Part shown: positions 4,801 through 18,852 of the stretch, in pieces
How positions within the stretch are numbered: the first letter of the stretch is position 1
Layout: the number at the start of each line of letters is the position of its first letter
IMG/VR virus record: IMGVR_UViG_3300025087_000279
Span: 1-26,265 of that record
Origin: a virus
Length of the DNA stretch: 26,265 bases
Reading direction: 5' to 3' (one strand)
The notes under the pieces: generated by a model
What the model saw: the letters and a program-made list of their open reading frames with translations, nothing else
What the model was told of the DNA's origin: nothing
Database searches by the model: none
Program-made: the position numbers and the translations under genes

Positions 4801-4998
4801 GTACCTGCAATACCGGGAGTCTCTATGGCGAATTCCGGCAAGCGACTGTTCTCAGTCATCCGGTCGATGGGGACTGCACCGAAGAACCACATCTATCATG
4901 CGTACAAGTTATCAGTCTCGACTTCAGACGAGACGATCGGGTTCGAGCCGGTGTTCCTTGTTCTTGGTTACCGGTCGATCGGGAAAGACTCCCGGTAG
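1819..4998 (+). CDS. Large tail nozzle-like protein with LamG insertion
   Basis: The 1059-aa product looks like a podoviral nozzle/tail tube protein. Its N-terminus (about 1-190) and C-terminus (about 690-1059) are beta-rich, with repeated blades containing phrases such as VHHVDRVWYWGS, GGIVICDGSS and WAYDILRKKWYEKPL, as in beta-propeller nozzles that sit below the adaptor ring. Residues about 197-393 form a LamG/concanavalin-A-like jelly roll: it opens with MALWHFD, has the central phrase YSIDFWINP and VWSHVALVE, and ends with GYLDEFRVSNSARW. That domain usually binds carbohydrate or protein. Residues about 400-690 are further beta-rich material. The protein is longer than typical nozzles, consistent with domain insertion. 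The start is preceded by AGAGG at 1811-1815. An alternative is a tail baseplate or fibre-type protein; the position directly after the adaptor favours nozzle. Confidence 0.7.
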   Translation: MADDRIVTYRELPLNGRLRTNDDPAELVSEGNVVDLSLLQNMRYFDSHLQGIGGTTKINTTVLGNPQIKNMFQFRKDSPAESNVLVAARDSNGLNQKVYRNGTAIPSAGDFTATALFTDSTGYGTPMFSTAPGEKAIYCNGKDTAIWGGSEMKPIGFIDMDPNGTYKYDYTEQVKNSLTDSNNIATLHRRADTVDAATMALWHFDNSPNDATAAAHNLTEVSAAYSTSVKKFGTHSVGGSGGYFTIADHADFDFSGGTYSIDFWINPTAKTGTIYHQGSATDYYKIYFNGSGVLVMDIYAASSLVLSHGIDVLSPLQLGVWSHVALVESGNNYYPFVNGASLNTYSGVERAANYASAIAIKAMNDGSTIFNGYLDEFRVSNSARWTDSFDPPTLAYGSTTITSIYVGSQLPVQGVNPYVVTANTTAGAVTGNYWSSSGWASLGAVSGVGATPLSAVGKNTWTFTSTASIVRQKAIDDKVAYWYRFDITDCDATTTISQLTLDTPVQALKELWDGQYRTVNSFLVYKNSTFNDYAVNVFEDSWTSTDTNTFVELDSLATATDALYIGFSERQMGLRLNLIGGHVNTTASTIATVSYYNGTGLATNSDSWTWVGTTDDGTANAGIAVSKSGTVTWTPPALSAEFKVSISGSMTGDRVIDVLLNPSNAPAQSQRMYFYKVVFSQNLSADVQLFFIGGITAPEDVAGHKFAVHHVDRVWYWGSEKDPHLGFCTSRETAQVLRGADTVSFYLKNTPVAGISLFERYGSTAANVQLVCEPTRTWAIVGETVENFVPNCIDSSNGCTSALTMDVATVEILPGTFRRVGMWQSQGGIVICDGSSVTEVSHDIKDKFDPKHANYIGASTLAACSGWIDPVYNEYNWVIPGTTIWAYDILRKKWYEKPLATSKRPSCGLAVYDTNGIAYSYAATASGFMYRMEYGTTIDGTAIPFAVQIADVAPTGSISDRTEACSVRLVGKAKTTTTQAVLIEHFGDSSTTASVPAIPGVSMANSGKRLFSVIRSMGTAPKNHIYHAYKLSVSTSDETIGFEPVFLVLGYRSIGKDSR

Positions 4999-5007
4999 GA
5001 GGACGTT

Positions 5008-6207
5008 ATGGCATACGCCTATGATGCTGGATTAATCGACCGGATCATGCCGAGGATAAAACAATACGAAGCCACGACCGGGCGCAAAATCAGCCAGTCG
5101 GTGCTCGATGCTTTGATGAAGGGCCAGTTGTCCGCCGAGGTCGACAAGGCGCAGCAGACCCGTGCGATCGATCTTCAGGAAGAGCAGTTCGCCAATCAGA
5201 AGGATCAGCAGAAGAAGGCGGCTAAGGCGGCTTCGGTCAAGGGGTACGTGGATACTGCATCTACGGCAGGCATGGGGTACCTCACCTATAAGGCAGTCAC
5301 AAAGCCGTCTGCGATGTCTGAATTGCTTGCCTATCAGAAAAGCATTGGGGCAACCCCGGCCATAACGGGGGCAGACATTACGGCGGCTGGCGGGTCATTT
5401 GGTGCTCCGACAGCAGAGGCCGCAGGGTACGGGTTGACCGCCCCCGGATATACCGCCCCCGCGTTTACTGGAGCGCAGACGACCCTTGCGGGAGGGACGG
5501 CAGCAAGTGGCGCTCAAGCAACGCCAGCAGTGTACGGGACCGGGGAATATGCCGCCTACGATGCGTCTCTTGCGGCCGGGGCATCTGAGGGGGTTGGGAC
5601 GGCGACATCGGCGGCCTCCATGCTTGGGCCTGTTGCTGGCGGTGTCGGCGGCGGACTTTTGGGCGCGGACCTTGCTGTAAATAAATTACACCTTTTCGGA
5701 GCGGGGAAACCGGGGCATATGGGCGGGGAGACAAACACGGCAGCGGCTGTCGGTGGGGCTGTCGGTGGGGCAGCCGGAGGCGCACTTATAGGATCACAGG
5801 TGGGATCTGTTGGCGGACCCGTCGGTGCAGCTGTTGGCGCAATCGTTGGCGGTGTTGTCGGGTGGGCGTCAGAGGCATCGGTAATTTGTAGCGAACTTGT
5901 CCGCCAGAAACGCATCTCCGAGCGCGAGAGGACTGCCTGCGTTATCTTCCGCTTCCGGTATATCCCAGACGACATGTTCATGGCCTATCTCGAATGGGCG
6001 GAACCTATAGTGCGCCTTATGCGAAACAATAGGGCGGCTAACTTCTTCCTTGTTCCGTTTGCGATGCATTTCGTGGGTTACATGCTGGCGGTTCAGGCCA
6101 AGGTGGAACCTACGATTACCGAACGCCTTGTATGGAAATACGCTTGGTGGAGATGCAGCGAGATTGCTCGACGTACCGAGCAATTCGTTAAGGAGGTGGC
6201 CGCGTAA
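5008..6207 (+). CDS. Glycine-zipper internal/tail protein with Cys-containing C-terminal domain
   Basis: This 399-aa protein starts after AGGAGG at 4998-5003. Residues 1-90 are charged and helical, about 90-290 are very rich in Gly, Ala and Val with repeated AVGGAVGG-type glycine-zipper segments able to insert in membranes, and about 290-399 form a separate domain beginning ICSELVRQKRIS and containing EWAEPIVRLMRNN. Similar C-terminal domains occur at the ends of other phage tail/ejection proteins, in my recollection. Because it precedes two further internal-virion-type genes, it is probably a minor virion protein ejected to help DNA cross the envelope. That role is inferred from composition and order. 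Confidence 0.65.
   Translation: MAYAYDAGLIDRIMPRIKQYEATTGRKISQSVLDALMKGQLSAEVDKAQQTRAIDLQEEQFANQKDQQKKAAKAASVKGYVDTASTAGMGYLTYKAVTKPSAMSELLAYQKSIGATPAITGADITAAGGSFGAPTAEAAGYGLTAPGYTAPAFTGAQTTLAGGTAASGAQATPAVYGTGEYAAYDASLAAGASEGVGTATSAASMLGPVAGGVGGGLLGADLAVNKLHLFGAGKPGHMGGETNTAAAVGGAVGGAAGGALIGSQVGSVGGPVGAAVGAIVGGVVGWASEASVICSELVRQKRISERERTACVIFRFRYIPDDMFMAYLEWAEPIVRLMRNNRAANFFLVPFAMHFVGYMLAVQAKVEPTITERLVWKYAWWRCSEIARRTEQFVKEVAA
5745..5768 (+). repeat. Perfect 12-bp tandem duplication in the glycine-zipper segment
   Basis: The unit GGCTGTCGGTGG occurs twice back to back, with a degenerate third copy after it. It encodes AVGG repeats in frame, so its copy number could change the length of the predicted membrane-inserting segment without breaking the gene. 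Confidence 0.85.
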
Positions 6208-7574
6208 TGGGCTTCATGGAGGACGTAGGCCGGTCCAACGCCCTAAGCAGCGTCAACAACCTCATGGGCAAGGCAATCGACATCCGGCGCGGTGAAGACC
6301 AAAGCGCCGAGAGAGCATACACGGTTGGACTTCAGACTGAGAAGTTTGGCCTAGAGAAGGAATCTGCGGCGCGAGAGGCGACCAAGTTCGGTTGGGCGGC
6401 AGAGGAACAGGCAAAGAAGCAGAAGTTCAACAAGACCGTTGTGCCCGTAGACACCATTCTTCAAAACGCCCGTCCTGGGTCGAGAGAGAAGTTGCTTAAA
6501 CTTGGCAAGGACAACGGGTGGATTCAGGATATCGGAGGAAACCTTGTCATATCTAACGAAAACCTTGCGAACGCAAAGCAATATCTGAAAGAGAACCTTG
6601 AATTTACTAGTCAACTAGCACTTACCGATGTGGCGGATATCAATAAAGAGATGATCCCACTGAAGCAGCAGTTGGCGGAACTAACAACGACCAAGCCTGA
6701 CGATAAGAGTATACCCATCCTGCAAAAACGCATAGCGGATTTAGATAAGCAGAAAACGATGCATCTCAACAGCGCGTTAGAGATCGACAAGGCGTATCAA
6801 GAGAAGAAGGCACTTGAGGAAACAAAGCAGACTGGAAAAATAGTCAAGGGTCCGGACGGGGGGTTGTATCGGCAGAAGGAAGATGGGACGATGGAGGAAT
6901 TGGTCGCCCCGCCGGAGAAGGAAACGAAACCCCCGCCGGACCGTAGAAGGGATGTTGGAGCGCACACTCTTACCGAGGAGTGGGAGGACGGTGCATGGGT
7001 AGAAGTTAGTCGTGCTCCTCGGTGGAACACAAGGGGGGACGCAATTGAGGCAAGAAAGACTAAGCAAGAAACATTTAAGAACGAGCAGTCCATGCGTAAG
7101 GAATTTGAAGCGTTGCCTGAAGTCAAGGACTTCACTGCTGTAAGCATAGCTGCTGGACAGATGGATGCCGCCTATGCAGAGTCTAAGAAGACGAAAAACT
7201 TTGTGGCAGTAGACCAAGCGTTAATCACAATGTTCAATAAAATGACGGACGCTAAGTCTGTGGTTAGGGAGAGTGAATATTTAAGGACCGCAAGTGATAT
7301 GGCTATATGGAATAGATTGAAGGGTAAGAAGGCGCAGTTAGAAAGTGGAGGTGCCGGGATAACAGCAGAAGAACGTACCGCTCTTAAAACAATATCGGAT
7401 AGATTCATGAAAGCGTCTTCCAGTAGGTACAACAAAGTAGCAACCGAATATAAAAGACTGGCAACAGAATACGGATACAAACCCGAAAATGTGGTATTCA
7501 GGAACACGATCATAACCGCCGATGACGCTCCCAAGACAGCCGATGACTTCCTCAAGAAGTACGGAGGAAAGTAA
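6207..7574 (+). CDS. Putative internal virion/ejection protein, Lys-rich helical
   Basis: The 455-aa product starts at a TAATG overlap with the previous gene, behind AAGGAGGT at 6190-6197. It is predominantly helical and charged. Residues about 120-200 (KQQLAELTTTKPDD, then KRIADLDKQKTM) look like coiled coil, followed by a Pro/Lys/Glu linker around 225-250 and a helical C-terminal domain. No enzyme motif or signal peptide is seen. Together with the genes on either side it forms a three-gene set resembling the internal core/ejection proteins of short-tailed phages. The segment 7000-7570 looks more AT-rich by eye than the flanks, perhaps reflecting a different ancestry of the C-terminal half. 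Confidence 0.65.
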   Translation: MGFMEDVGRSNALSSVNNLMGKAIDIRRGEDQSAERAYTVGLQTEKFGLEKESAAREATKFGWAAEEQAKKQKFNKTVVPVDTILQNARPGSREKLLKLGKDNGWIQDIGGNLVISNENLANAKQYLKENLEFTSQLALTDVADINKEMIPLKQQLAELTTTKPDDKSIPILQKRIADLDKQKTMHLNSALEIDKAYQEKKALEETKQTGKIVKGPDGGLYRQKEDGTMEELVAPPEKETKPPPDRRRDVGAHTLTEEWEDGAWVEVSRAPRWNTRGDAIEARKTKQETFKNEQSMRKEFEALPEVKDFTAVSIAAGQMDAAYAESKKTKNFVAVDQALITMFNKMTDAKSVVRESEYLRTASDMAIWNRLKGKKAQLESGGAGITAEERTALKTISDRFMKASSSRYNKVATEYKRLATEYGYKPENVVFRNTIITADDAPKTADDFLKKYGGK

Positions 7575-10054
7575 TGGATCTCGCTGAACTGGCAAACAAC
7601 GAGGATTTCAAGGGCCTGCCGACGGAAGAGCAGCGTAAGGTCATGTCGCAGAACCCTGATTTCTCTTCTTTGCCCGTTGCGGAGCAGGATAAAGTCATCG
7701 CCCGGATACCGAAAGGGTTCGCCGCTTCTCCGAAGGGCGAGACGCAGTTGCGTCAAGGCAAACCTGTTCGTGAGTTTCTCAGCAGCATCTACACTCCCCT
7801 TCTTGAGATGGGCGGGATGGTATTGGGCGAGACTGCCGGGGCCGTTACCGGGGCCGCAGGTGGTCCGGTGGGCGCTACTGTCGGGGCGTTGAAAGGCGCA
7901 GGCATCGGTTATTCGACCGGCAGAGGAGCCGCGCAAGCAGTAGATGTCGCAACTGGACTGAGTGACCTGCCTTCGTTCGAGGAGTCTGCCGAGAGCAGGG
8001 CGAAGGATGTTGCCGTTGGTTCTGCTCTTGGCGCGGCAGGCAAAGTCGCTCAGCCGGTCCTGGAGGCCCCTTTCAGGTATCTCGGGGGGAAGATCGCGGC
8101 GAATGAAATCGTTCTCAACAAGGAAGCAGCGGCGATCGCAGAGCGTGAGGGTTTCGATCTCACCGCAGCGCAGCAGACCGGCTCCCCGGGGTTGTCGCGT
8201 ACGGAGATGGTCGGTCGATGGTTCTTGACTGCCGGTGGGGTGTTCAACAAACGGGACGCGCAGGAGGCTTCGAAGTGGGTCGCCAAGCGCCAGCAGTGGC
8301 TGGATAAACTCGGAGACCCGTACCCCGGTACTTTGTCCGCAGACAGGGCGGCGGAGGCGGGGAAGATCGTCAAGGAGAAAGTCGACGCTCTGGTCAAGCG
8401 ATCTGATGCCCGGACCGCCGCAGATGTGGAGCGGGTACGAACCGCGCTCTTGAAATCAATGGGGTCCAACGAGCCATACTCCGAGTTGGGGAAGAGCGGA
8501 CAGGAAATCATAAAGGCCAGGAACGCGAAGGATTTCGAACGCGCCGGAAAATTATACGACAAAGCGAAACAGTTTCTAAACGGCGACGAACGGCTCGCGG
8601 CGGGTAACTTGAAGGCGACGGCGCAGAAAATTATCGACGAGGAATTGAAGATCCCCGCGAGCGACCGGAACAATGCGCTGATTTCCCGGTTGAAGTCGTA
8701 CACGAAACTCCCGACTACGCAGGAAGAAATCGCAGCGGCGACGAAGAAAGACGCGGAGATAAAGAAATCCGTAGATGCGTTGGTGGCTGGCAGCAAACCG
8801 AAGAACCAGCAGGAGACGGACGATCTGCGGACGGCGGTGTTGCAGACCTTGCGCGTGGATAAGCCTTACGAGGAACTTGGCAATGTGGGGCTGAACCCCG
8901 ATGCGGTGTCCACTCTCCGCTCGCACTTTAGAGACGCCATCGAGGTCGCGGATAGCGCGGCGCGGAAGGGAATTGAAGGCGGCAAGTTTATGAGCAGCAA
9001 GGAGGGCGGCGCGTACAAGCGGCTTCAGGGTGCTCTTGGCGCGGACGAGGAAGTCTTCGCTGCTCATGTTGGAGGGGAGTACCAGCGCGTCCATTCCTTG
9101 GCGAAGGCGTTCTATAAGAAGAAAACGAACTTCTGGCAGGATAAAGATGTCGTCAAGATGATGACGGAGAAGCCGGAATATCTTCTCGACTACGTGACCG
9201 ACGCGGGGAGCACGACCATACCGGCGAAGTTCAAGGCGGCGATCGGCCCGCAGGGGGTACAGAAGTTCAAGGACCGGCTTACCAGTAAACTGTTCGATGT
9301 CGCCAAGCCGGGACCGTTTGACCCCGACGGAGTTGTGGAGAACATCGCCAAGTACGGCGAAACGCTCACGGCTTTCTACTCGCCGCAGGAAATATCTCTG
9401 ATGGTGGATGCGGCGAATGCGGCCAAGGGGATGAAGGTCGCAAACCTCGAACGAAATAAGTATTTTATCGACCTGATGAAGGAATCGCCCGAGAAGGCCG
9501 CTTCGTTTATCATGCAGACGGAAAACATCCCGATGCTGTCTCGGTTGAAGCTCGTCGTCGGCAAGGACACTATGAACCGGATGCGGTCTACTTTCCTTGC
9601 GAACGAAATCGAACTGAACGTGTACGGCATGATGTACCCCTCCGATCTTGGGAGAATGCTTGACAGACACGGCAAGAACAAATTGAATGCTTTTCTCGGT
9701 CCGGAACTCACTCAGAACATCGTAGACATGAATAAAGTCGGCGCGGTAACGCGCACCGTGGAGAACATCGCTAAAAACCCCTCCGGTACGGGGCAGGCGC
9801 TTATTTCGTACTTTACGCTTATTCAGGTGGGGTCAGATTTGGCGAAGGGCAATCTGTGGGGGGTGATTAAGACGCTGTGGCCCCCCAACATCATCGCTAA
9901 AGCGTACCTCACCAAACGGGGGACGGCGTTGCTGTCGGGCACGGCAGGGATTCCCGCCGAGTCGTCTCTTGCGGCGCAGACCTATATCAAGTTGCTAGGG
10001 GTCGTTTCAGAGGGCGGCAAGTATCCGTATCGAGGAGGCTCGAATGGCCCGTAG
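7574..10054 (+). CDS. Large putative ejection / internal virion protein
   Basis: The 826-aa protein starts at a TAATG overlap after GGAGG at 7563-7567. The first 50 residues hold two copies of a short motif of the form DFxxLPxxEQxKV (around 12-24 and 30-42), which I recall from phage internal proteins and peptidase/lysin-linked virion proteins. Residues about 70-120 are Gly/Ala-rich with a hydrophobic stretch (GETAGAVTGAAGGPVGAT), a likely membrane-interacting segment. The remaining about 600 residues are long charged helices without a recognisable catalytic site. This matches the large last member of a podoviral ejection-protein set, delivered into the envelope with the DNA. No lytic transglycosylase Glu motif could be recognised, so enzymatic activity is not claimed. 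Confidence 0.65.
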   Translation: MDLAELANNEDFKGLPTEEQRKVMSQNPDFSSLPVAEQDKVIARIPKGFAASPKGETQLRQGKPVREFLSSIYTPLLEMGGMVLGETAGAVTGAAGGPVGATVGALKGAGIGYSTGRGAAQAVDVATGLSDLPSFEESAESRAKDVAVGSALGAAGKVAQPVLEAPFRYLGGKIAANEIVLNKEAAAIAEREGFDLTAAQQTGSPGLSRTEMVGRWFLTAGGVFNKRDAQEASKWVAKRQQWLDKLGDPYPGTLSADRAAEAGKIVKEKVDALVKRSDARTAADVERVRTALLKSMGSNEPYSELGKSGQEIIKARNAKDFERAGKLYDKAKQFLNGDERLAAGNLKATAQKIIDEELKIPASDRNNALISRLKSYTKLPTTQEEIAAATKKDAEIKKSVDALVAGSKPKNQQETDDLRTAVLQTLRVDKPYEELGNVGLNPDAVSTLRSHFRDAIEVADSAARKGIEGGKFMSSKEGGAYKRLQGALGADEEVFAAHVGGEYQRVHSLAKAFYKKKTNFWQDKDVVKMMTEKPEYLLDYVTDAGSTTIPAKFKAAIGPQGVQKFKDRLTSKLFDVAKPGPFDPDGVVENIAKYGETLTAFYSPQEISLMVDAANAAKGMKVANLERNKYFIDLMKESPEKAASFIMQTENIPMLSRLKLVVGKDTMNRMRSTFLANEIELNVYGMMYPSDLGRMLDRHGKNKLNAFLGPELTQNIVDMNKVGAVTRTVENIAKNPSGTGQALISYFTLIQVGSDLAKGNLWGVIKTLWPPNIIAKAYLTKRGTALLSGTAGIPAESSLAAQTYIKLLGVVSEGGKYPYRGGSNGP

Positions 10055-10322
10055 ACCCATCTCAGGGGTAGCAAGAGACGGTGTTGGAAACATTGTAGCC
10101 TCTGCAACGGCGACATTGACCGTGTATTCCGGTGGAGCCGCCGCGACTTGCTACGCTGCGGAGTCCGGCGGGTCGGCCCTGTCGGGCGGGGCTACGACAT
10201 CCGGTACTGATGGCACGTATACGTTCTGGGTCGACGACGGCGATCACGCGGTCTTGACCATCTTCAACGTAACGGTGAGTAAGACCAACCACAGAACGAT
10301 GACGACTCCGATAGCGGCATAG
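10044..10322 (+). CDS. Small beta-rich appendage-type protein
   Basis: This 92-aa protein overlaps the end of the previous gene by 11 bases and has its own GAGGAGG just upstream. It is rich in Gly, Ser, Thr and Ala with alternating hydrophobic residues. Phrases such as GVARDGVGNIVASATATLTV and GTDGTYTFWVDDGDH match the small Ig/transthyretin-like domains found singly or in repeats on phage tail fibres, where they act as linkers or surface-binding modules. There is no signal peptide. It sits directly before a tailspike, so it could be an adaptor or stem subunit of that spike. Confidence 0.65.
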   Translation: MARRPISGVARDGVGNIVASATATLTVYSGGAAATCYAAESGGSALSGGATTSGTDGTYTFWVDDGDHAVLTIFNVTVSKTNHRTMTTPIAA

Positions 10323-10330
10323 GGGGAACG

Positions 10331-11899
10331 ATGAAGAAATACACGGCGTGGGTATTGGCACTCTTGTTTTACGTTTCGGTTCTTCCGTGGAATATGGCGG
10401 GTGCGACGGATTATTGGAATTATAACGTTCATAAACTAAATTTCGACAATACATATTTATCCACACTTCAGGGTAACGACCTCATCGTGAAGGGGCCGTG
10501 GGTGGATGTGAGGGCGTATGGGGCCGTTGCTGGCGGTTCTGCCTCTGCCAACGCGACGGCGCTTGCGGCGGCTATTGTTTACGCCAACGCGAACAATCTC
10601 GATATTTTCATCCCAATAGGTGTGTTTGCCTATAACGGCGACGGGCTGACTTTTAACACGACCGCGACGACCGGCCATGGGTCGATCCATGGGGTCGGCC
10701 CCGGTTCCGTTCTGGATTATCAGGGAACCGGCGTGGCCCTCTCAATGGCTGATGGAGACGGGTCTGGTAGATACGCGCCATACCTCCATGATTTCCGCAT
10801 CACCACCTCTGCCGGTACTCCTCTCGGCGGGCTGCATATCGGAGCCGGAGCACAGTACGGGATGGTGAACGGGGAACGGATATATATAGACGGATTTGAC
10901 AACACGAACGCCTACGGTATGAGGGCGTCAAAGGTAGTTTCATCCCATTTTATTGATTCATCGTTTTGGGATAATTACGACGGGTTCATTACAATGAATA
11001 CTGTTGGAAGTTGGCCCACGACGCTCACGTTCAGTTCGAGCCGCTTCCGCTCGAATGATCGGCACGGTGTGTTTCTTCAGAGCGGGTTAGGAATTACATT
11101 CGAGAGTAACTGTATTTTTGAATCGAACCAGCATGCGGGGATTTACGCTACCGGAATCGGAAGCGATCCATCGCTCGGGCTTATAAAAATTATAGGAAAC
11201 CATTTCGAAAACAATGGGGGCAGCACCGACAACACGGATTACAACATAGATATTGTTGGTACAGATGCAGCCGATCCAATACCCGACGTTTGGATTCAGA
11301 GCAATTACATACAGGACACCGCTGGTGGCGGACATATCCGGTACGGGAAATTAAGGTATGTCGTCATAAGGGATAATTTCTTTAGCGGGACGGACGGCCC
11401 GGAGGATGTAGCGAACGTTGGCAACAACCGCTTTGTGGAGTGGTTAAGAAATCACGGAATTAACGAAACAAGCGTGACAGCCCACGGGAATAACGCAGAG
11501 GATGCCGACCAATATCAAGCGAGTGGAATTAATCTCAGGACGCAACCGGTGGGGGCAACTTATTGGACCACGCATCAACTGAAATCCTCCAGTGCCTTGG
11601 TATCATTGCCCGGTGACAACGCCACGCTCACCACGATCGCATCTCTGATTCTCAACGGGACCGACGCGGATATAGCCGGAGGCATCGTCTTGGTCAGCGG
11701 GTACAACGCAGGTCTTACCGCATATTTCGTGGACCTTGTGGCCCTTAGTTACGGGGCGGCGGCTGTCATCAGCACCAGCAACACCGTGGGTTCTCCCGCC
11801 GCGAGGACGTACAGCGTAAGTTCAAATGTCAATCTACAGGTTAAATTCGCCAACGACGCGGACACATATGCTGTCCGAGTTTCGCAACTGACAAATTGA
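10331..11899 (+). CDS. Tailspike with pectate-lyase-type parallel beta-helix and N-terminal signal peptide
   Basis: The 522-aa protein carries the phrase WVDVRAYGA (about 58-65), the usual opening of pectate-lyase-3 superfamily right-handed beta-helix domains in phage tailspikes. It is followed by short beta rungs to about residue 370 (for example FESNCIFESNQHAGIYATG), then a separate C-terminal domain (about 390-522). Such spikes bind or cleave host polysaccharide. Unexpectedly, residues 1-25 (MKKYTAWVLALLFYVSVLPW, then NMAGA) form a convincing Sec signal peptide with likely cleavage after AGA, rather than a tail-attachment domain. AGGGGGA precedes the ATG. Catalytic residues cannot be assigned by eye. 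Confidence 0.75.
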   Translation: MKKYTAWVLALLFYVSVLPWNMAGATDYWNYNVHKLNFDNTYLSTLQGNDLIVKGPWVDVRAYGAVAGGSASANATALAAAIVYANANNLDIFIPIGVFAYNGDGLTFNTTATTGHGSIHGVGPGSVLDYQGTGVALSMADGDGSGRYAPYLHDFRITTSAGTPLGGLHIGAGAQYGMVNGERIYIDGFDNTNAYGMRASKVVSSHFIDSSFWDNYDGFITMNTVGSWPTTLTFSSSRFRSNDRHGVFLQSGLGITFESNCIFESNQHAGIYATGIGSDPSLGLIKIIGNHFENNGGSTDNTDYNIDIVGTDAADPIPDVWIQSNYIQDTAGGGHIRYGKLRYVVIRDNFFSGTDGPEDVANVGNNRFVEWLRNHGINETSVTAHGNNAEDADQYQASGINLRTQPVGATYWTTHQLKSSSALVSLPGDNATLTTIASLILNGTDADIAGGIVLVSGYNAGLTAYFVDLVALSYGAAAVISTSNTVGSPAARTYSVSSNVNLQVKFANDADTYAVRVSQLTN

Positions 11900-11952
11900 T
11901 GCGCCCCTCCTTCCCCGCTGCCTCCTTCGCGCTTGAAAGGGGGAATAGATGA
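11899..11952 (+). CDS. 17-codon mini-ORF (possible reinitiation relay, first unit)
   Basis: The tailspike stop TGA at 11897-11899 shares its last A with an ATG that opens a 17-codon reading frame. That frame ends TGA at 11950-11952, overlapping the next mini-ORF as ATGA. There is no clear Shine-Dalgarno before it, so it would be read only by ribosomes that have just finished the spike gene. The peptide (MRPSFPAASFALERGNR) has no recognised function. It may act only through translation. Confidence 0.3.
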   Translation: MRPSFPAASFALERGNR

Positions 11953-11993
11953 CCCGCACCCGCCTCATCGCGCAGTTGCAGGAGGGTAGATGA
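11949..11993 (+). CDS. 14-codon mini-ORF (possible reinitiation relay, second unit)
   Basis: A second tiny frame starts inside the ATGA that ends the first and is preceded by AAAGGGGG at about 11936-11943. It encodes MTRTRLIAQLQEGR and stops at TGA 11991-11993, overlapping the lysin ATG at 11990 as ATGA. The lysin ribosome binding site (AGGAGGG, 11980-11986) lies inside this frame, so translating it would clear or expose that site. This is the classic layout of a coupling leader, but it could also be chance. Confidence 0.35.
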   Translation: MTRTRLIAQLQEGR

Positions 11994-12391
11994 GACTCAT
12001 ACCCGATGATCTTCTCGGCATCGTTTGCGTTTTTCAGGAGGCCGAAGGGGAACCTATCGAGGGCAAGGTGGCCGTCGCGGAAGTGATCCTTCGACGCACT
12101 CAGCGGAAGTACATGAGCGACGGGACCGTGGCGGGGACCGTGCTGCGCCGTCTGCAATTCAGCGGTATGAATAGCAACGCTCCGAACCGCACACGTTCCT
12201 TCAAGGTAGACGATTCGGACGCCAAGGTTCTCGAATGCGTATCGGCGTGGCAGATGGCGAAGCAGGGAAGTATCCTTGCGCCTGGCTGTCTGCATTATTT
12301 CAACGCGCATATCGTATCCCCGCCGTGGGCGAAGGATGCGGAAGTTGTCGCTGTCATCGGCAACCATACATTCGTGAAGGTGAAAGAGTGA
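11990..12391 (+). CDS. SleB-type cell wall hydrolase (endolysin)
   Basis: The 133-aa product fits the Hydrolase_2/SleB family of cell-wall hydrolases. It has the expected N-terminal EAEGEPIEGKVAVAEVILRR (about 17-36), whose first Glu is the presumed catalytic acid, followed by QFSGMN (about 56-61) and GCLHYFNA (about 100-107). It is a single domain of usual length without a signal peptide, so it needs a holin to reach the peptidoglycan. AGGAGGG at 11980-11986 sets the start. The next genes encode membrane proteins, which supports a lysis cassette. I am confident in the fold, and less so in whether it acts as muramidase-like transglycosylase or another glycosidase type. Confidence 0.85.
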   Translation: MRLIPDDLLGIVCVFQEAEGEPIEGKVAVAEVILRRTQRKYMSDGTVAGTVLRRLQFSGMNSNAPNRTRSFKVDDSDAKVLECVSAWQMAKQGSILAPGCLHYFNAHIVSPPWAKDAEVVAVIGNHTFVKVKE

Positions 12392-12600
12392 GGGGCTGTC
12401 GCCATCCGTGGATGCCGTGGTCAACATTCATCGCGCACGTGGAGACGTGCCGGAAGGAGAAAGAGGATGCGAAAGGTAATCTTTGCAACGATCCTGCTGT
12501 TGGCACCGCTGATGATCGGCTGGACCGTATCGTGGGATCCCGTGACGATGTACACGGACAACACGGCGATCGAAGCGACGAAACTCCCGGTCAAGTATGA
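12388..12600 (+). CDS. Possible small Cys/His protein overlapping the lysin stop
   Basis: A 70-codon frame begins at GTG 12388, overlapping the lysin stop as GTGA with AAGGTG five bases upstream. Its start has a compact Cys/His pattern, CRHPWMPWSTFIAHVETC (C-x-H then H-x3-C), which could bind zinc. The last two thirds overlap the Fn3-like gene at 12467 in another frame. It is either a genuine small overlapping gene or a chance frame. The start signals are as good as those of accepted genes here, but the overlap is unusually long. Confidence 0.35.
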   Translation: MRGCRHPWMPWSTFIAHVETCRKEKEDAKGNLCNDPAVGTADDRLDRIVGSRDDVHGQHGDRSDETPGQV

Positions 12601-12805
12601 GATCAAGAAGGACGGGGCGATCCTCGTAACCGGAACGACGGCGACCTCCTTCGCGTTCACGGACACCGGCCACGGGTTGACCCGATCATTCACCGCGAAA
12701 GCCGTGTTGCAGACCGGAGAGGAATCGGTGGAGTCGCCGTCCTACTCGTGGACCGTCCCTTTGGGCAACCCCCGCAACCCGGCCAATCTCCGGGTTGCGC
12801 CGTGA
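12467..12805 (+). CDS. Secreted fibronectin-III-like small protein
   Basis: The 112-aa protein begins with a signal-peptide-like stretch (MRKVIFATILLLAPLMIGWT) and continues with a single fibronectin type III-like domain: TVSWDPV, a central KYEIKKDG strand, a T-rich turn and a C-terminal SYSWTVP strand, ending in a Pro/Asn-rich tail (NPRNPANLRVAP). Fn3 domains of this kind occur in secreted bacterial proteins and as phage appendage decorations. GGAGAAAGAGG upstream sets the start. Lying between the lysin and holin-like genes, it could be a periplasmic lysis factor, an outer-membrane modifier or an appendage decoration. No lipobox Cys is seen, so it is probably not an o-spanin. Confidence 0.7.
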   Translation: MRKVIFATILLLAPLMIGWTVSWDPVTMYTDNTAIEATKLPVKYEIKKDGAILVTGTTATSFAFTDTGHGLTRSFTAKAVLQTGEESVESPSYSWTVPLGNPRNPANLRVAP

Positions 12806-12816
12806 GGGGATGAGAT

Positions 12817-13005
12817 ATGTACTGCCCGCGCTGTAGCCGAGACGTGCATCCGATGGAGGATGAGAATGTCCTTGCCCTCCTTCATGGCATGGCAGAAGAC
12901 TTCCGGCTTCGGCCCCACAAGATAGACGAAACAACGGACAAAACCTGCGTGGCGATCACGGCCTACATTCGTGGGCGCGAGAGACGATATTGGGAGGTGA
13001 AGTGA
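12817..13005 (+). CDS. Small CxxC protein, possible zinc ribbon
   Basis: The 62-aa product starts MYCPRCSRDVHPMED, a CxxC knuckle that with a following His and Cys (TCVAITAYIRGRERRYWEV) could bind metal. It has no membrane segment. GAGGGGATGAG lies before the ATG. Its stop overlaps the next start as TGATG at 13003-13007, so the two are coupled. Function is unknown; small zinc-ribbon proteins in phage late operons are common. Confidence 0.65.
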   Translation: MYCPRCSRDVHPMEDENVLALLHGMAEDFRLRPHKIDETTDKTCVAITAYIRGRERRYWEVK

Positions 13006-13283
13006 TGGCCGAACAGAACTGGTTCCAGAGGATCATGTCGGCGGCGTTCGACCAGCGGGGCGGGGTCTATGTCGGAATGGCGACCGTCGCCGTCACCATC
13101 ATGGCCCTCGGGGAGTTCGTGAAGAACGGCTGGAAAGCCCCGGCGTGGTACGTGGCGGTCCCTCTCGGGGTCTATGCGTTCATCCTCGGGGTATTCGTCG
13201 TCCGCAAGGGGGCCGAGTATTACATGGACAGCCGGTACAATTCCCCGGCGGATAAGCCGCCCGAGAAACCCCCGGCGGGGTAG
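13005..13283 (+). CDS. Putative holin, two membrane segments
   Basis: The preferred start is the ATG at 13005 (MAEQNWFQRI), with GGGAGG at 12992-12997 and a TGATG overlap; an upstream in-frame ATG at 12990 lies on top of that ribosome binding site. The 92-aa protein has hydrophobic segments at about 21-39 and 47-66, a charged region after the second segment and a Pro/Lys-rich tail (DKPPEKPPAG). Size and topology match class II-type phage holins, which open the inner membrane to let the lysin out. Proximity to the SleB-type lysin supports this. No named holin family is recognised. Confidence 0.65.
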   Translation: MAEQNWFQRIMSAAFDQRGGVYVGMATVAVTIMALGEFVKNGWKAPAWYVAVPLGVYAFILGVFVVRKGAEYYMDSRYNSPADKPPEKPPAG

Positions 13284-13292
13284 GAGGCGAGG

Positions 13293-13877
13293 ATGTGGAA
13301 AAAGATCGGGCCATTTGTCCTACAGAACAACGTGGGGGCTATTGCCCTTATCGCAGTTCTGTTTTTTGCCTATGCCAAGTTTGCCCCGGACTCCCTCAAA
13401 CCGTGGTCGAACGCCCCGACAGTAGCAGTCCAGCCGAAGGACCCGGCGGCGACCATCGAGCGGATCTACATCCCCGGCCCCGAAAGGGTACGGGTCATCG
13501 AAACGATAAAGTATCTCGAAAAGGTCCCGGGGGCGCTGACTCCGGCGACCGCCGCCGATAACTCGGCGCACGTCATCGCGTCGGCGAAGATACCCCCCTC
13601 CCCCGCCGGAGGGACGGCCACGGGCATCCTACGGTATCAGGACGGGGTAGGAACGGGATCGATCGAGTACAGGGCGGCGACGCCCCCCTTCTTCGCCATC
13701 CAGAAGGAGTTCGGCGTCAGGGCGGGCATGGGGACCGGAGGATTCGTCATTGGCGAGATCTACGCGAGACCATTAAGGATTGGCCCTGTCACGGTGGAGA
13801 TTCGCGGATACGGTCAGAGGACTGATCTTAGTGGGGCCGATTTCGGCGGTGCTGTTCTGGCCGACTTCAGATTTTAG
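13293..13877 (+). CDS. Membrane-anchored periplasmic protein, spanin-like position
   Basis: The 194-aa product has one N-terminal membrane anchor (about 10-28, IGPFVLQNNVGAIALIAVLF region), a Pro-rich linker (about 40-60), a short helical part and a beta-rich C-terminal domain (about 105-194) rich in Gly with alternating hydrophobics. This topology, in the lysis cluster, is compatible with an inner-membrane spanin component, but the beta-rich C-terminus is unlike Rz, which is mostly coiled coil. AGGAGG at 13282-13287 sets the start. It may instead be a beta-barrel-like unimolecular spanin or an unrelated membrane protein. Confidence 0.6.
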   Translation: MWKKIGPFVLQNNVGAIALIAVLFFAYAKFAPDSLKPWSNAPTVAVQPKDPAATIERIYIPGPERVRVIETIKYLEKVPGALTPATAADNSAHVIASAKIPPSPAGGTATGILRYQDGVGTGSIEYRAATPPFFAIQKEFGVRAGMGTGGFVIGEIYARPLRIGPVTVEIRGYGQRTDLSGADFGGAVLADFRF

Positions 13878-13887
13878 GGAGGCAACC

Positions 13888-14160
13888 TTGGCGAACGGTG
13901 ACAATGTATGGGTAGATATCAAGGACATGCGCAGGGACATAACCAATCTCGCCAAGGAAGGCTGCGGTCACAAGGAGTGGCATGAAAAGGTATCGAACGA
14001 GTTGCGACAGGATCTTATCGCTGAAGTAAAGGAGCGTGGTGCGATGGGAGACAAGTTATTCAACAAACTGGACCGTCTTATGGCATTGGTGATCGGCGCA
14101 CTCGGGGGCATCATCGTGATTCTGCTGAAATCATACCTTCCGACGATATTCGGAAAGTAG
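13888..14160 (+). CDS. XhlA-like membrane protein, second holin candidate (TTG start)
   Basis: The reading frame is open further upstream, but the only well-placed start is TTG at 13888, behind AGGGAGG at 13876-13882, which overlaps the preceding stop. The resulting 90-aa protein has a charged amphipathic N-terminal half (VDIKDMRRDITNLAKEG, with a KEWHEK segment) and one C-terminal membrane helix (LMALVIGALGGIIVILLKSY). That is the layout of the haemolysin XhlA family, which cooperates with a partner holin and a lysin in some phages. The pair with the two-segment protein at 13005 is plausible. Confidence 0.65.
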   Translation: MANGDNVWVDIKDMRRDITNLAKEGCGHKEWHEKVSNELRQDLIAEVKERGAMGDKLFNKLDRLMALVIGALGGIIVILLKSYLPTIFGK

Positions 14161-14168
14161 ACCGGTCG

Positions 14169-14183
14169 TTACCGACATGGTAA
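14169..14183. promoter_or_regulatory. Short inverted repeat TTACC-5-GGTAA
   Basis: A perfect 5-bp inverted repeat with a 5-bp spacer lies in the 77-base gap before the second appendage module, one of the few gaps in the late block. It could be a protein-binding half-site pair or part of a promoter region, but no convincing -35/-10 pair with 17-bp spacing is seen. Confidence 0.3.
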
Positions 14184-14202
14184 AGTAGAAACACATCAAC
14201 CG

Positions 14203-14224
14203 GCGGGGACGGGAAAAGTCCCGC
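14203..14224 (+). promoter_or_regulatory. mRNA hairpin just before the 14238 ribosome binding site
   Basis: GCGGGGAC and GTCCCGC can pair (one bulged G) around a GGGAAAA loop. The hairpin ends directly before AAGGAGGT at 14225-14232. There is no U-tract after it, so it is not a typical terminator. It may protect a processed 5' end or tune translation of the next gene. Confidence 0.5.
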
Positions 14225-14237
14225 AAGGAGGTAGGCC

Positions 14238-14834
14238 ATGTTTGTTCTTGAATATTACGGAGAGGCTTTGACCCACCAGAAGGTCGTTCCAGGAGACACG
14301 ATTACGTCTTTGAACTCGGAGATGTATACGTACTGCGAAAGGTATCTGGCATATACCTCCGGCGGCACAACGGAAGTTGCCGTTGGAGACTGGATCGTCG
14401 GCGCGACCGGCGCTGCGAAGGCGCGGGTTCTGTTCGTAACGCTTGACTCCGGTACGTGGGCGGGTGGGGATGCCGCAGGACACTTCATCATCAATAGCCA
14501 GCATGGGTCGTTTCAGAGCGAGAACATCAAGGTCGCCGGTGGGACCAACGACGCCACGATCGCCGCGAACTCAAGGCTCTGCGCCTACGATGAGTACGTG
14601 AACAAGCAGTTCTACAAGAAGAACGCGACCGCCGCGCTAATTAACGTGTACGCACAGACCGCGCTGGTGGATATCTCCGGTGCCAAGCCCGATCAGACAG
14701 CATTGGTTGGACAGCCCATCGCCGCTGGTGGTAACTGGATGCTTCGAGATCCGAAAGCAATTCGGTCGTTTAAGTGCGTGGATTATACGTCTGCTTCTGC
14801 CTCGACAATCCAATGCACGTTCTTCTACAAGTAG
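14238..14834 (+). CDS. Hypothetical virion-type structural protein
   Basis: The 198-aa protein begins MFVLEYYGEALTHQKVVPGD, is beta-rich with many Thr, Gly and Ala residues, and has no signal peptide or membrane helix. The strongest ribosome binding site in this region (AAGGAGGT, 14225-14232) and a preceding hairpin suggest high expression, as for an abundant structural subunit. Residues about 38-75 (TSGGTTEVAVGDWIVGATGA, AKARVLFVTLDSGTW) look like a small beta-barrel domain. It is the first gene of the second appendage module, so head decoration, fibre connector or chaperone roles are possible. No family is recognised. Confidence 0.7.
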   Translation: MFVLEYYGEALTHQKVVPGDTITSLNSEMYTYCERYLAYTSGGTTEVAVGDWIVGATGAAKARVLFVTLDSGTWAGGDAAGHFIINSQHGSFQSENIKVAGGTNDATIAANSRLCAYDEYVNKQFYKKNATAALINVYAQTALVDISGAKPDQTALVGQPIAAGGNWMLRDPKAIRSFKCVDYTSASASTIQCTFFYK

Positions 14835-14843
14835 GTGATAAAC

Positions 14844-15857
14844 ATGAAGAAAACAATCTTTCTCCTTATCGCTCTCTGTGCCTTGATCCCTGTTGTCGCT
14901 TTCTGCCTCGGTGAAGGCGGGATACAAGGAGGCGGGACTTCCGGCACCGTCACCGAAGTAACCGGCGATTCGATGATTGGCGTAGCGACCGGTACCTCGA
15001 CCCCCGCGCTGTCGCTGACGGACAACTCGGTGACGAATGCGAAACTCCTCGACAATACGATCGCCACCGGGAAGATCGCAGACGGGACGATCGTGGATGC
15101 TGATATTAGCGCATCTGCCGCGATTGATGCGACGAAGATCGACCTATCTGCCTACGCTCCGCTCATCTCCCCCTCCTTCACGACCCCGACGTTGGGGGTT
15201 GCGACGGCTACTACTCTGTCGACAGGGCAAGGACAATACGAACTGTACGCGATGAATCAGGACGTAAAGACGACCGACAACGTAGTCTTCAACACCGTCA
15301 CCGCCGAGATCATTTCCCCCTGCACCGCAACCGACAACGATTGCTTCCTTGAGGCGGTGAATGCGGGCGCGTTGGACGATGCTTATTTGAAGGCTGGGCG
15401 GCTGTGGTTCGACAACACGTTACAGGCGATGAAGGTGAGAAATAACGACAACACGGCCACGTTGGAGGTCTTCACCTCCGGGGCGGCGCATACGCTCAAC
15501 TTTGCCACCACCGGCACGATTACCGGCGGCATCATGATCCTCGACAACGTGGTGTCTCCAACAGTCTCGCAAGTCTACGGATCGTGGAACACGATCACCA
15601 CGGCAGGTACGGTAACGCTACCCGCCGCCGCAACCGGCATGTCCACCTGTATCGCCACCGAGGGCGCGTTGGAGATCACGCTGGAGTTGGACGGTTCCGA
15701 CACGTTTGTCCTCGCCGGGGTCACGATGGACGCCGGGGAAGCCATCATCAACACGACGGCAGAGGCGGCGGGAGACTACATCTGCGTGATCGCAACGTCG
15801 GCGGTTAAGTGGAGAGTGGCCGGAAAGCAGGGCACGTGGACGCAGGCCACCCCATGA
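14844..15857 (+). CDS. Tail-fibre-like protein with N-terminal signal peptide
   Basis: The best start is ATG 14844 (MKKTIFLLIALCALIPVVAF), with AGGTG at 14833-14837; the frame also opens at GTG 14835. The first about 25 residues are a signal peptide. Then comes a short-period repeat region typical of fibre shafts (about 55-105; SVTNAKLLDNTIATGKIADG and VDADISASAAIDATKID). Residues about 110-230 are mixed beta and resemble fibre segments that precede a C-terminal head. The last 100 residues (GTVTLPAAATGMSTCIATEG, and DSTVTMD-like alternation) look like a small beta sandwich. It overlaps the next gene as ATGA. Role: host-surface contact, inferred. Confidence 0.7.
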   Translation: MKKTIFLLIALCALIPVVAFCLGEGGIQGGGTSGTVTEVTGDSMIGVATGTSTPALSLTDNSVTNAKLLDNTIATGKIADGTIVDADISASAAIDATKIDLSAYAPLISPSFTTPTLGVATATTLSTGQGQYELYAMNQDVKTTDNVVFNTVTAEIISPCTATDNDCFLEAVNAGALDDAYLKAGRLWFDNTLQAMKVRNNDNTATLEVFTSGAAHTLNFATTGTITGGIMILDNVVSPTVSQVYGSWNTITTAGTVTLPAAATGMSTCIATEGALEITLELDGSDTFVLAGVTMDAGEAIINTTAEAAGDYICVIATSAVKWRVAGKQGTWTQATP

Positions 15858-16951
15858 GGAAACTACTCTTCGCACTCCTGATCCTGCTGGTAGCCTCTTC
15901 CTCGTTCGCCGGGGGCGGCGCGACGATGATGATGATTGGGGGAACGGCGGCGGGGGGGTGTGTTGCCTCCTACGGCGCGGAACTCAACACAACGCAGACG
16001 GCCTCTTCCCCTGCGGGGGTGTCTGAGGCCAACGCCACGACCGGATGGGCCGCAGCAGGGACCGGCACGTTTGAATCCTCTACGACCGCGCCGAGTTTGG
16101 GCACCTATCACATCAGCGCAATCGCAAACGCTAACGGAGGGAAGGTTTCCTACGCGCTCGGCTCCCTTGGCTTGACAGGCGGGACGCTGTACAAGATAGC
16201 GTTCGGTCTTCGGCACAACGGGACCGGTGGAGCGTGGTCGTGTGGATTTGGCGCGTCAACCGATACCTACCAAATAATGAATTGGACTATAGATAATACG
16301 GCGGACGCCTATACCCATTACTCCGTATATTTCCTGTCAAATGGCACCGAGGACACGCTTGGTTGCAAGGAAGCCAGTGCGTCCGATGACGGCGGCATGT
16401 ATATCGACAACGTGTCCATCAAGGCGGCAACTCCATGTTCAGGGGATGAACTTCACACCGCTGCCAACGCCGCAGCCATAGGTGCAGAGGCAAACGCCAC
16501 GACCGGGTGGAGCAATATAAATACCCTAAACTCGTTCACATCGGATGGCACCGGGCCGCACGGCGGTTCATACCACATTCTCGCAAATGCAATGACAAGC
16601 TCCGCCGCGAATAACGGATTCAACATAGACCTCGCGTTCGCGCCGTTCTCCCTTCAGGACGGGACGAAATACGTGGTGCGTTTTTGGGCGCGTCATATCA
16701 CGGCGGCTGAAGGGGGCGGGGACGCAGGGGATGCGTGGCAGTGCGGGCACAGCAATACAAGCACCGGCGCGGCTAACACCACGAACCATACTATGTCGTT
16801 AGCCGCGGCCACCACAACCTACGCCGAATACGGATGGGACGTAACGTACAGTTCCACTTTTAGATACTTCGTCTGCACGGAGGCCGGAGCGAACAACAAC
16901 GGCGGGATTTATCTGGACGACTTCAGCGTGAAGGCGATCACGGGGGAATGA
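15854..16951 (+). CDS. Secreted protein with duplicated CBM-like domain
   Basis: The chosen start, ATG 15854, overlaps the previous stop as ATGA; the frame is open further upstream, but that part lies inside the fibre gene. The 365-aa product has a signal peptide (MRKLLFALLILLVASSSFA, cleavage likely before GGG). It then has two copies of a jelly-roll-like domain: each has an EANATTGW opening (about 58 and 212), a G(S/T)YHI strand, a long loop with Cys, and a closing GG(M/I)Y(I/L)D(N/D) strand. This resembles galactose-binding/carbohydrate-binding (CBM4/9-type) folds. The duplication is also visible in DNA near 16025 and 16487. Role: binding a surface glycan, inferred. Confidence 0.7.
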   Translation: MRKLLFALLILLVASSSFAGGGATMMMIGGTAAGGCVASYGAELNTTQTASSPAGVSEANATTGWAAAGTGTFESSTTAPSLGTYHISAIANANGGKVSYALGSLGLTGGTLYKIAFGLRHNGTGGAWSCGFGASTDTYQIMNWTIDNTADAYTHYSVYFLSNGTEDTLGCKEASASDDGGMYIDNVSIKAATPCSGDELHTAANAAAIGAEANATTGWSNINTLNSFTSDGTGPHGGSYHILANAMTSSAANNGFNIDLAFAPFSLQDGTKYVVRFWARHITAAEGGGDAGDAWQCGHSNTSTGAANTTNHTMSLAAATTTYAEYGWDVTYSSTFRYFVCTEAGANNNGGIYLDDFSVKAITGE

Positions 16952-18852
16952 TGAAGCGACTATTCACGGTCCTTGCGCTCTGCCTGTTCGCCTCCATCGC
17001 GTCCGCTGCCGATGTCTACATCACCGATGCTACCTCCGGAGGGGATACGGGGGCCGATTGCGCGAACGCCCATTCTGCATCGTGGTTTAACTCCAATGCC
17101 GTCGGGGGCAATACCTATCATCTCTGCGGCACGTTCACCGGTACGGCGGGAAGCACGAAGTTGACGCCTCCTTCGGGAACCGCCGGGAATGTCCTGACCG
17201 TCGTCTTCGAGGCCGACGGGGTACTTACGGCTCCGTATTGGGGCACGAACGGAGCGATTCAGATTTCGGGGAAGTCCTACATCACCATCGACGGGAACAA
17301 CGCAGGCATCATCCAGAACACGGCAAACGGCACGGCTCTCGACAATCAGCAGGCGTCCAACGGGATCAATATATCCGCGTCCGATCACATCACAATCCAG
17401 AAACTTACCATCGACAATGTGTACCAAAACGGCGGAAGTGACCCGGCGTCCACAGACGGCGGCGGGGTGAACACGAACGATATCCTTCTCTCGGGCAGCG
17501 GGAACAATATCCTTATAGACAACAATACCCTGAAGGCGTCCCGTGCCGGAATCCGGTACGACTTCGACTCCGACACGCTCGATACGATCACCTTCTCCAA
17601 TAATATAATCACCGACCACTGTTGGGGCATCGCGATGGCGTCCGGGGGGACGAATACCAACGCGACCAACGTGGTTATTTCAGGGAACGACATCTCCGAG
17701 TGGCTGAACTGGCAATGCCCCGCGAACGCGGCGTACTGCACGGACAAGACGGACAGGTACCACACGGACGGGATGATACTATACCAACCTCGTACAAACG
17801 TAGCCGCGTTCCAACCTTTAATCTTCAATAATTATATCCACGGCGATTTGGGTAAGGGTTCTCCTACCGCGTTTATCTATTGTACCTACGGAGGAGGAGC
17901 ATCTGGAACCAATGGGGCTTCGTGCAGAATTTACAATAACCTTCTTGTCTATATAGACGGAGGTGTTAGTTCAACGAATCATTGGGGAATATCTACGGGG
18001 GGCAGCACAGACGGTCACTTGATTTACAATAATACTGTTGTTGGAAAATCATCATCAGTTGGCGCAGGGATGATGCTTTCTTCTACTAACACGGAAGTTA
18101 AAAACAACATCGTTGCTTCATCGAAGTACGGCATCGCCAGTTACAGCACTGCGTTCACAACCGATGGGTACACGATAGACAACAATGTTTACTACAACAT
18201 AAACACCGGAACAGAGAGTTATATGTTCCATCAGGACGAATCCAGCCCAACCGCCCCCGGCGATTACTGGACGTGGGCGCAATGGCAAGCGGCGGGGTTT
18301 GATGCGACAAGCCAATACGTTGATCCGCTGTTCGTTGGCAGCGGCGACTACTCGCTTCAGGTGGGTAGTACGGCCATCGACAATGGTGCCGACCTGTCGG
18401 CGTATTTCATTACCGACTACGCCGGAAACGCCCGTCCTGCGGGCGCGGCGTTCGATATCGGAGCATATGAGTACGGTTCCGGGGATGGTACCCCCTCCGC
18501 CTTCTCCTTCGGCGCGGACGTAACCGGAGCGGAACTGTCCACGCTCACCCCCTCCCCCGACAACGTGACCGTAGCCGGGATAGACGCAGGGCAGACGCCA
18601 GCGATCACCGTAAGCGGGACTGGGTGCGAGTACAGCATTGACGGGGCGGCGTTCACCTCCGACGCGGGAACCGTGGGCCTCGATAACGTGGTGGCCCTGC
18701 ACACAACGTCCTCTGCGTCCCACAACGCGACGATCACCTGCACCGTGACCATCGGCGGGGTAAGCGATTCGTGGGGGGTGACAACCAAAACGTACGCTGC
18801 AGATACGAGCCGGGCGCGGAAAAGGGCGGGCGGAAGGGGAGGGTGGAGATAG
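16948..18852 (+). CDS. Second beta-helix spike with signal peptide and Ig-like C-terminus
   Basis: The 634-aa product starts at ATGATG (16948 or 16951), overlapping the previous stop. It has a signal peptide (MMKRLFTVLALCLFASIASA, cleaved before ADV), a right-handed beta-helix region (about 90-430) with many short rungs (ISGKSYITIDGNNAG, HITIQKLTIDN, LIYNNTVVG), a choice-of-anchor-Q-like segment (about 490-510, RPAGAAFDIGAYEYG) and a C-terminal Ig-like domain (about 515-620). This architecture is typical of secreted bacterial surface proteins and unlike classical phage tailspikes. The last residues (RARKRAGGRGGWR) are basic; their codons double as the ribosome binding site of the next gene. 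The segment 17820-18200 looks AT-richer by eye, suggesting mosaic origin. Confidence 0.7.
   Translation: MMKRLFTVLALCLFASIASAADVYITDATSGGDTGADCANAHSASWFNSNAVGGNTYHLCGTFTGTAGSTKLTPPSGTAGNVLTVVFEADGVLTAPYWGTNGAIQISGKSYITIDGNNAGIIQNTANGTALDNQQASNGINISASDHITIQKLTIDNVYQNGGSDPASTDGGGVNTNDILLSGSGNNILIDNNTLKASRAGIRYDFDSDTLDTITFSNNIITDHCWGIAMASGGTNTNATNVVISGNDISEWLNWQCPANAAYCTDKTDRYHTDGMILYQPRTNVAAFQPLIFNNYIHGDLGKGSPTAFIYCTYGGGASGTNGASCRIYNNLLVYIDGGVSSTNHWGISTGGSTDGHLIYNNTVVGKSSSVGAGMMLSSTNTEVKNNIVASSKYGIASYSTAFTTDGYTIDNNVYYNINTGTESYMFHQDESSPTAPGDYWTWAQWQAAGFDATSQYVDPLFVGSGDYSLQVGSTAIDNGADLSAYFITDYAGNARPAGAAFDIGAYEYGSGDGTPSAFSFGADVTGAELSTLTPSPDNVTVAGIDAGQTPAITVSGTGCEYSIDGAAFTSDAGTVGLDNVVALHTTSSASHNATITCTVTIGGVSDSWGVTTKTYAADTSRARKRAGGRGGWR

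Follow-up and report, generated by a model that had tools for sequence, protein, structure and literature searches.

A relay of overlapping reading frames that joins a viral tail spike gene to a lysin gene is probably the scar of repeated gene replacement. The relay lies in a 26,265-nucleotide sequence (IMG/VR record IMGVR_UViG_3300025087_000279, positions 1 to 26,265; hereafter the window), where two mini open reading frames (mini-ORFs) connect the two genes through shared stop and start codons. We propose, at a probability of roughly 0.7, that the mini-ORFs are the heads of two former lysins, stacked by serial replacement of the lysin gene.

A chain of shared stop and start codons

The relay and its flanking genes lie on the plus strand. 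The spike gene (10331–11899) is an ORF whose match to the beta-helix family Beta_helix of Pfam reaches 25.2 bits, slightly below the cut-off of 25.9. Its stop codon TGA (11897–11899) overlaps an ATG at 11899 in the sequence TGATG, which opens the relay. Mini-ORF 1 (11899–11952; 17 codons, MRPSFPAASFALERGNR) ends in a TGA (11950–11952) that shares ATGA with the ATG at 11949 of mini-ORF 2 (11949–11993; 14 codons, MTRTRLIAQLQEGR), whose own TGA (11991–11993) shares ATGA with the lysin ATG at 11990. The lysin (11990–12391), a Hydrolase_2 (SleB-type) cell wall hydrolase that falls in PHROG endolysin families, matches the whole PF07486 profile over residues 20–129 (58 bits against a cut-off of 27), and its stop (12389–12391) overlaps a GTG at 12388 (GTGA). 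A Shine-Dalgarno-like (SD-like) stretch, AGGGGGA (11938–11944; duplex energy −10.7 kcal/mol), stands at the end of mini-ORF 1 ahead of mini-ORF 2, and the 16-mer AGGAGGGTAGATGAGA (11980–11995) holds the Shine-Dalgarno and start of the present lysin. An earlier note on this sequence had described the overlap chain and the GTGA junction, and both can be read directly in the DNA. Its gap of 94 bases corresponds to the span 11897–11990; the true distance from spike to lysin is 90 bases (11900–11989).

Such a chain might consist of chance overlapping frames in a GC-rich gap, retained merely through the kinship of the viruses. In 20,000 dinucleotide shuffles of the gap, an unbroken stop/start chain appeared 51 times with ATG starts, 78 times with ATG or GTG and 161 times with ATG, GTG or TTG, and a Shine-Dalgarno followed by TAGATGA already holds a stop in two of three frames. 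A chance chain is improbable for any one gap, yet the count is indecisive since this gap was hand-picked from many. The relay is real because all three overlaps recur in a second virus. With unrelated flanks around the recurring chain, and with mini-ORF peptides that match lysin starts, we consider chance a very unlikely explanation.

Other signals were scarce. The relay RNA folds no better than its shuffles (z −0.28), a scan of 9800–14300 listed no sigma-70-like promoter or terminator-like site in the gap, and the window contains no tRNA.

The relay block recurs between different genes

Distant loci were retrieved with a profile of p194, a downstream gene (13293–13877), which yielded 15 loci in the viral collection and one in the genome collection. 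Three of these 16 (L028, L030 and L034) begin at or inside p194, with nothing visible upstream. The remaining 13 represent nine loci of distinct origin: L021 and L022 (the window group) make one, and L024, L025, L026 and L035 another; these last four are identical where they overlap, save for the number of a 54-base repeat in L026.

The L024 group carries the complete chain: spike TGA/ATG, MRASFPAISFVPEREDR, ATGA, MTRTQLIAQLQEGR, ATGA and then a GH108 lysin. All three overlaps are thereby kept in a related virus, the comparison that the earlier note had suggested. The block common to the two viruses spans 99 bases (11897–11995), of which 85 are identical, with no indel. It is sharply bounded: in flanking 20-base bins, five to the left and six to the right, only 3 to 7 of 20 bases agree in each. 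The flanks are at chance level because the L024 spike body and lysin differ from those of the window; the spike proteins match only around residues 34–66. At an E value of 0.001, the DNA shared by window and L024 is limited to a 48-base spike block (89.6% identity), the relay (85.9%) and p194 (71%).

Within the block, punctuation is conserved while peptide drifts. Mini-ORF 1 differs between window and L024 by six amino-acid-changing codons and one silent one, mini-ORF 2 by one of each, and the L024 counterpart of the AGGGGGA stretch reads AGGGAGG. When the viral collection was scanned with a mini-ORF 2 pattern, six contigs came up, all from the window and L024 groups.

Because the same relay stands beside a different lysin class and spike body, it is no partner of the present lysin. 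What the two phages have in common here is a conserved short block between non-homologous genes. Judged by these alignments, the relay follows neither the lysin nor the spike body and is the boundary between two apparently exchangeable genes. The 48-base spike block, found by blastn in the N-terminal part of the gene (10475–10522, plus strand), is a possible left bracket for recombination of the exchangeable spike body, and perhaps the virion-attachment part of the spike.

Read-through of the spike stop was also considered and set aside: in both viruses the frame remains open nearly as far as the lysin, yet the encoded residues have changed at many positions.

Mini-ORF 1 resembles the start of a GH108 lysin

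Two further loci suggest where mini-ORF 1 came from. In L029, an intact GH108 lysin (read from L044, same record) has a homologous start (MRDSFPAAVAFVLSHEGG / MRDSFPAAVAFVLSHEGGYSYDPQDPGG) one base past the spike stop, with a longer frame opening upstream of it. In L017, a 17-codon frame (MRDSFPAAVAFVLEREG) lies between the spike and an intact GH24 lysin, its TAA directly before the GH24 ATG. The best match of this frame is the L029 GH108 lysin (score 74, reached by none of 3,000 shuffles). Compared with 801 N-termini, its best eight matches are all labelled GH108; at least two lysins in that set are mislabelled "other", and the L029 lysin is missing from it because its longest frame starts upstream. 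At the sequence level, these matches establish the L017 frame as the cut-off start of a GH108 gene.

Mini-ORF 1 resembles this cut-off start to a degree that none of 20,000 shuffles reached, as does its L024 copy, and its match to the L029 lysin start alone was likewise reached by none of 20,000. Several comparisons weigh against a GH108 origin. Against 37 GH108-pattern peptides pooled, of which at least eight are plainly spurious and were left in the set, the match is only moderate (11 of 3,000 shuffles; 15 of 3,000 for the L024 copy). GH108 enrichment among the 801 N-termini is non-significant (p 0.065; L024 copy, p 0.076), and the five best matches of the L024 copy in that set are not labelled GH108. 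Taken together, the comparisons argue strongly that mini-ORF 1 is a relic of a GH108 lysin start.

Mini-ORF 2 may be the start of a GH24 lysozyme

For mini-ORF 2 we built a matrix from 63 distinct GH24 N-termini (consensus MDRDALIEQLKRHEGL); in four of 80 GH24 loci the pattern used did not pick out an N-terminus. Mini-ORF 2 scores 17.4 bits, a value reached by 6 of 20,000 shuffles (11 for the L024 copy, 3 for the copy in sister contig L002). Among 6,493 starts in the window and its relatives, only three reach this score: mini-ORF 2, its L024 copy and one unrelated start, which exceeds it. Ranked against the 801 N-termini, its top three matches are GH24 (AUC, the area under the ranking curve, 0.866).

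The case is open to several objections. The GH24 test was made post hoc, after inspection, and GH24 is over-represented among the 801 N-termini. Two residues that normally precede the Glu are missing from the QEGR end of mini-ORF 2. For the L024 copy GH24 leads, but unrelated N-termini enter the top five, and unrelated ORFs of 25 and 22 codons score 28 and 27 against the lysin library, where mini-ORF 2 scores 29. We regard mini-ORF 2 with moderate confidence as a relic of a GH24 lysozyme start, and are less sure of it than of the first relic.

Proposed serial replacement of the lysin gene

The slot behind the spike holds lysins of several classes: Hydrolase_2 in the window group, GH24 in L017, an M15-like lysin in L015 (23.0 bits, below the cut-off of 25) and GH108 in L018, L019, L023, L024, L029 and L036, the last a contig of a bacterial bin. 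Each of two families was sought in a set of ten records, which may be fragments. Hydrolase_2 occurs only in G000, G009 and G010 of its set. GH108 (PF05838) occurs in six of the ten records scanned for it, a set without G000, and not in those of L015, of the L017 virus (G004) or of the two window sisters (G009 and G010); its absence from the last three fits relics of a GH108 gene that is no longer intact there.

Relics number none in L029, one in L017 and two in the window and L024, and we read these states as successive stages of replacement. In the ancestor, a GH108 lysin would have directly followed the spike, as it still does in L029. A GH24 lysozyme would have replaced it, joining just behind its first ~17 codons, a state still found in L017. 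A third lysin, a GH108 of another type in L024 and a SleB-type hydrolase in the window, would then have cut the GH24 gene to ~14 codons. Every joint would fall in an SD-like stretch, the end of the relic supplying the ribosome site of the next start, and TAGATGA at the joint would close the old frame onto the new start. The block would persist as a short shared boundary for the exchange of spike bodies and lysins, and stop-start reinitiation may carry translation through it as a by-product. The order of these events, the position of the joints at Glu-Gly codons and any coupling are inferred.

The joints themselves resemble one another. The 16-mer AGGAGGGTAGATGAGA also precedes the L024 GH108 lysin and the L017 relic; it occurs exactly in 20 of 170 loci fetched, all of them from the window, L024 and L017 viruses, and has one base changed in sister contig L002. 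Before the GH24 start of L017, GAAAGGGAGGGG comprises both the relic codons E-R-E-G and the SD stretch (duplex energy −11.8 kcal/mol). The conserved Glu-Gly of the presumed catalytic motif of GH24 and GH108 coincides with an SD-like motif in 76 of 78 GH24 genes and in all 28 GH108 genes, compared with 220 of 7,020 control codon positions in GH24 and 86 of 2,520 in GH108. Since Glu-Gly codons (GAR GGN) are SD-like, a cut there would leave a ready ribosome site for the newcomer.

This suggests a more general idea, which we offer as speculation and think rather unlikely to hold in full. Lysin genes would contain a built-in landing site, the Glu-Gly codons ~10–17 codons in, that mimics a Shine-Dalgarno. 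A new lysin grafted there would be translated at once, the leftover head would become a coupled leader, and repeated swaps would build a layered relay that doubles as homology for spike and lysin exchange.

Several observations count against serial replacement and its placement of the joints. The SD-likeness at Glu-Gly follows almost trivially from GAR GGN, and the duplex energy there lies in the top tenth of its gene for 24 of 28 GH108 genes and just 29 of 78 GH24 genes. Three states are the whole basis for the order of events, and an intact gene that begins MTRTRLIAQL was not found. Finally, a survey of 102 pattern-picked lysin genes (one GH24 among them mislabelled GH108) turned up 25 small ORFs that end near a lysin start and no convincing stack beyond the L024 virus.

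Another origin would be a mobile mini-element similar to the MIRU of mycobacteria, whose internal ORF is coupled to the next gene, placed between the spike and lysin genes. Delivery of ribosomes by short ORFs, MIRU elements among them, is an established proposal (PMC12548453). MIRU elements share with the relay the short block and the frame joined to the next gene by a four-base overlap, and the sharp bounds of the relay block would fit an insertion. However, fetched loci that carry the block hold it only once, with no dispersed copies seen, and in the viral collection the mini-ORF 2 pattern is confined to two virus groups. In L017, moreover, only the first ORF occurs, an intact lysin occupies the position of the second, and the peptide of that first ORF resembles the beginning of a lysin. 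Given this apparent lysin origin, insertion of a mobile element is highly improbable.

Relation to known mosaic joints

It is an established proposal that the joints of phage modules carry short boundary sequences (PMC3029335). Like these, the relay is a short shared block that borders exchanged genes and could provide homology for swaps. Unlike them, it seems to be built in layers out of the beginnings of genes that held the same slot before. Lysis genes are also known to be exchanged between phages by relaxed homologous recombination, with viable recombinants (PMC3945230). That exchange runs across regions of shared identity between lambda and defective prophages; in the window, by contrast, lysin classes appear to replace each other and to leave relics of 14–17 codons joined to the next gene. 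The overlaps are of the same ATGA and TGATG types as those of documented termination-reinitiation (PMC6728339), but the partners here are tiny probable relics, not full genes.

In the open literature, judged by titles and opening abstract lines, we found no report of layered lysin heads, of remnants of a lysin ahead of another lysin or of lysin exchange at a Shine-Dalgarno-like catalytic Glu. Mosaic joints as such are familiar; a lysin scar built in layers and visible at successive stages would be a new form of them. The locus bears on the old question of how mosaic phage joints end up at gene borders and keep genes expressed. It seems to show successive lysin-replacement steps across viruses of one clade, and it points to a simple explanation for the continued translation of such joints. 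A warning comes with it: conserved overlapping phage mini-ORFs can be fossils, not regulators.

Translational coupling as a possible by-product

The earlier note had suggested that reinitiation through the mini-ORFs couples lysin output to spike translation. Overlapping stop and start codons, one feature of such coupling, are present in the window and kept in the L024 group. Predicted SD duplex energies for mini-ORF 1, mini-ORF 2 and lysin are −0.6, −10.7 and −10.8 kcal/mol in the window and −4.2, −11.3 and −10.8 kcal/mol in L024. Almost without a Shine-Dalgarno, mini-ORF 1 is hardly translatable except by reinitiating ribosomes that finish the spike, and this dependence makes coupling possible. 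The lysin can probably start alone through its own strong Shine-Dalgarno. Five of the nine loci (L018, L019, L023, L029 and L036), moreover, have a lysin without a relay, and in L024 the relay stands beside another lysin and spike. Coupling of spike and lysin is plausible as a by-product of the relay. The further suggestion that the relay times lysis is unsupported, given that it accompanies another lysin class and that the lysin has its own Shine-Dalgarno.

A stronger claim would be that selection keeps the mini-ORFs as a dedicated device that passes ribosomes from spike to lysin and couples their output. Such a role could have been acquired later by relics and would not conflict with that origin. 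Conservation speaks for it: three overlaps and both SD stretches are kept in two viruses over 99 bases without indel, and the block is better conserved than p194 in the same virus pair (85.9% against 71%), although 99 bases are too short to prove that the absence of indels was selected. ATGA and TGATG coupling is documented (PMC6728339), mini-ORF 1 has hardly any ribosome site of its own, and the lysin start may be partly masked, its predicted opening energy of 12.0 kcal/mol being the third highest among 12 window starts computed. The strong Shine-Dalgarno of the lysin, the unconserved peptide of mini-ORF 1 and the relay-less loci all argue the other way, though in two of those loci, L019 and L023, the gene ahead of the lysin directly overlaps its start. 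Because the mini-ORF peptides look like cut-off lysin N-termini, they are explained without a regulatory purpose, and we hold a dedicated device to be possible but doubtful.

Close relatives of the window

When the viral collection was searched with the lysin or spike sequence, only two sister contigs matched, one appearing as L001 and L004, the other as L002 and L005. Both keep the lysin and the mini-ORF frames, whereas loss of the frames beside a retained lysin would have spoken against the coupling proposed in the earlier note. The first contig is identical to the window across 6,399 bases as L001 and has one difference in 19,051 as L004. The second differs, as L002, at 3 of 6,399 bases. 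These three (11978, 11979 and 11987, plus strand) fall in a ten-base stretch where mini-ORF 2 ends, and they leave frame, stop and overlap intact. As L005 it shows 18 differences over window positions 3004–19051, namely 15 in 7969–8161 and the three-base relay cluster, with no other difference in the kilobases around the latter; over 1–2955 it has three further differences, and the match is interrupted up to 3004. Both variant clusters have the appearance of imported tracts, unless they arose in assembly. The three-base cluster inside the block, with nothing else changed nearby, counts in favour of the replacement reading; that it could be an assembly artefact counts against.

The cluster at 7969–8161, within the gene at 7574–10054, comprises 15 substitutions in 193 bases of L005 and looks like an imported tract; L006 carries the base of the sister at 2 of the 15 sites. 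For L006/L008 the similarity to the window stops at 11712, within the spike gene, so this relative says nothing on the relay.

Matches to phage records were remote. The window lysin has homologues in 25 records, all below 60% identity, and ORF 5008 has no match. Relay DNA gave seven weak matches, the best at E ~1. The lysins of L019, L017 and L029, which belong to GH108 and GH24, likewise gave only matches below 60% identity.

Further features near the relay

The GTG frame that overlaps the lysin stop (12388–12600, plus strand; start CRHPWMPWSTFIAHVETCRKEK) enters the gene at 12467 in a different reading frame. Its start shows a weak likeness to a Cys/His small ORF located after the L024 lysin and joined to it by ATGA (local score 45 over 16 residues, reached by 13 of 20,000 shuffles).

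In L015, the M15-like lysin frame is overlapped at its start by a hydrophobic frame of 17 codons (3255–3308; MKRLTLLVLLLALDGGE), which may be another cut-off start, perhaps from a signal peptide. Hairpins followed by T runs were seen by eye just before the lysin in L018 (2988–3010) and L036 (4215–4236) and one gene before it in L023 (4305–4330), which suggests separate transcription in these relay-less loci. In L024, a tandem repeat with a 54-base period (1455–1592) lies just before a gp77-like adaptor gene, and L024 and L026 seem to hold different numbers of its units.

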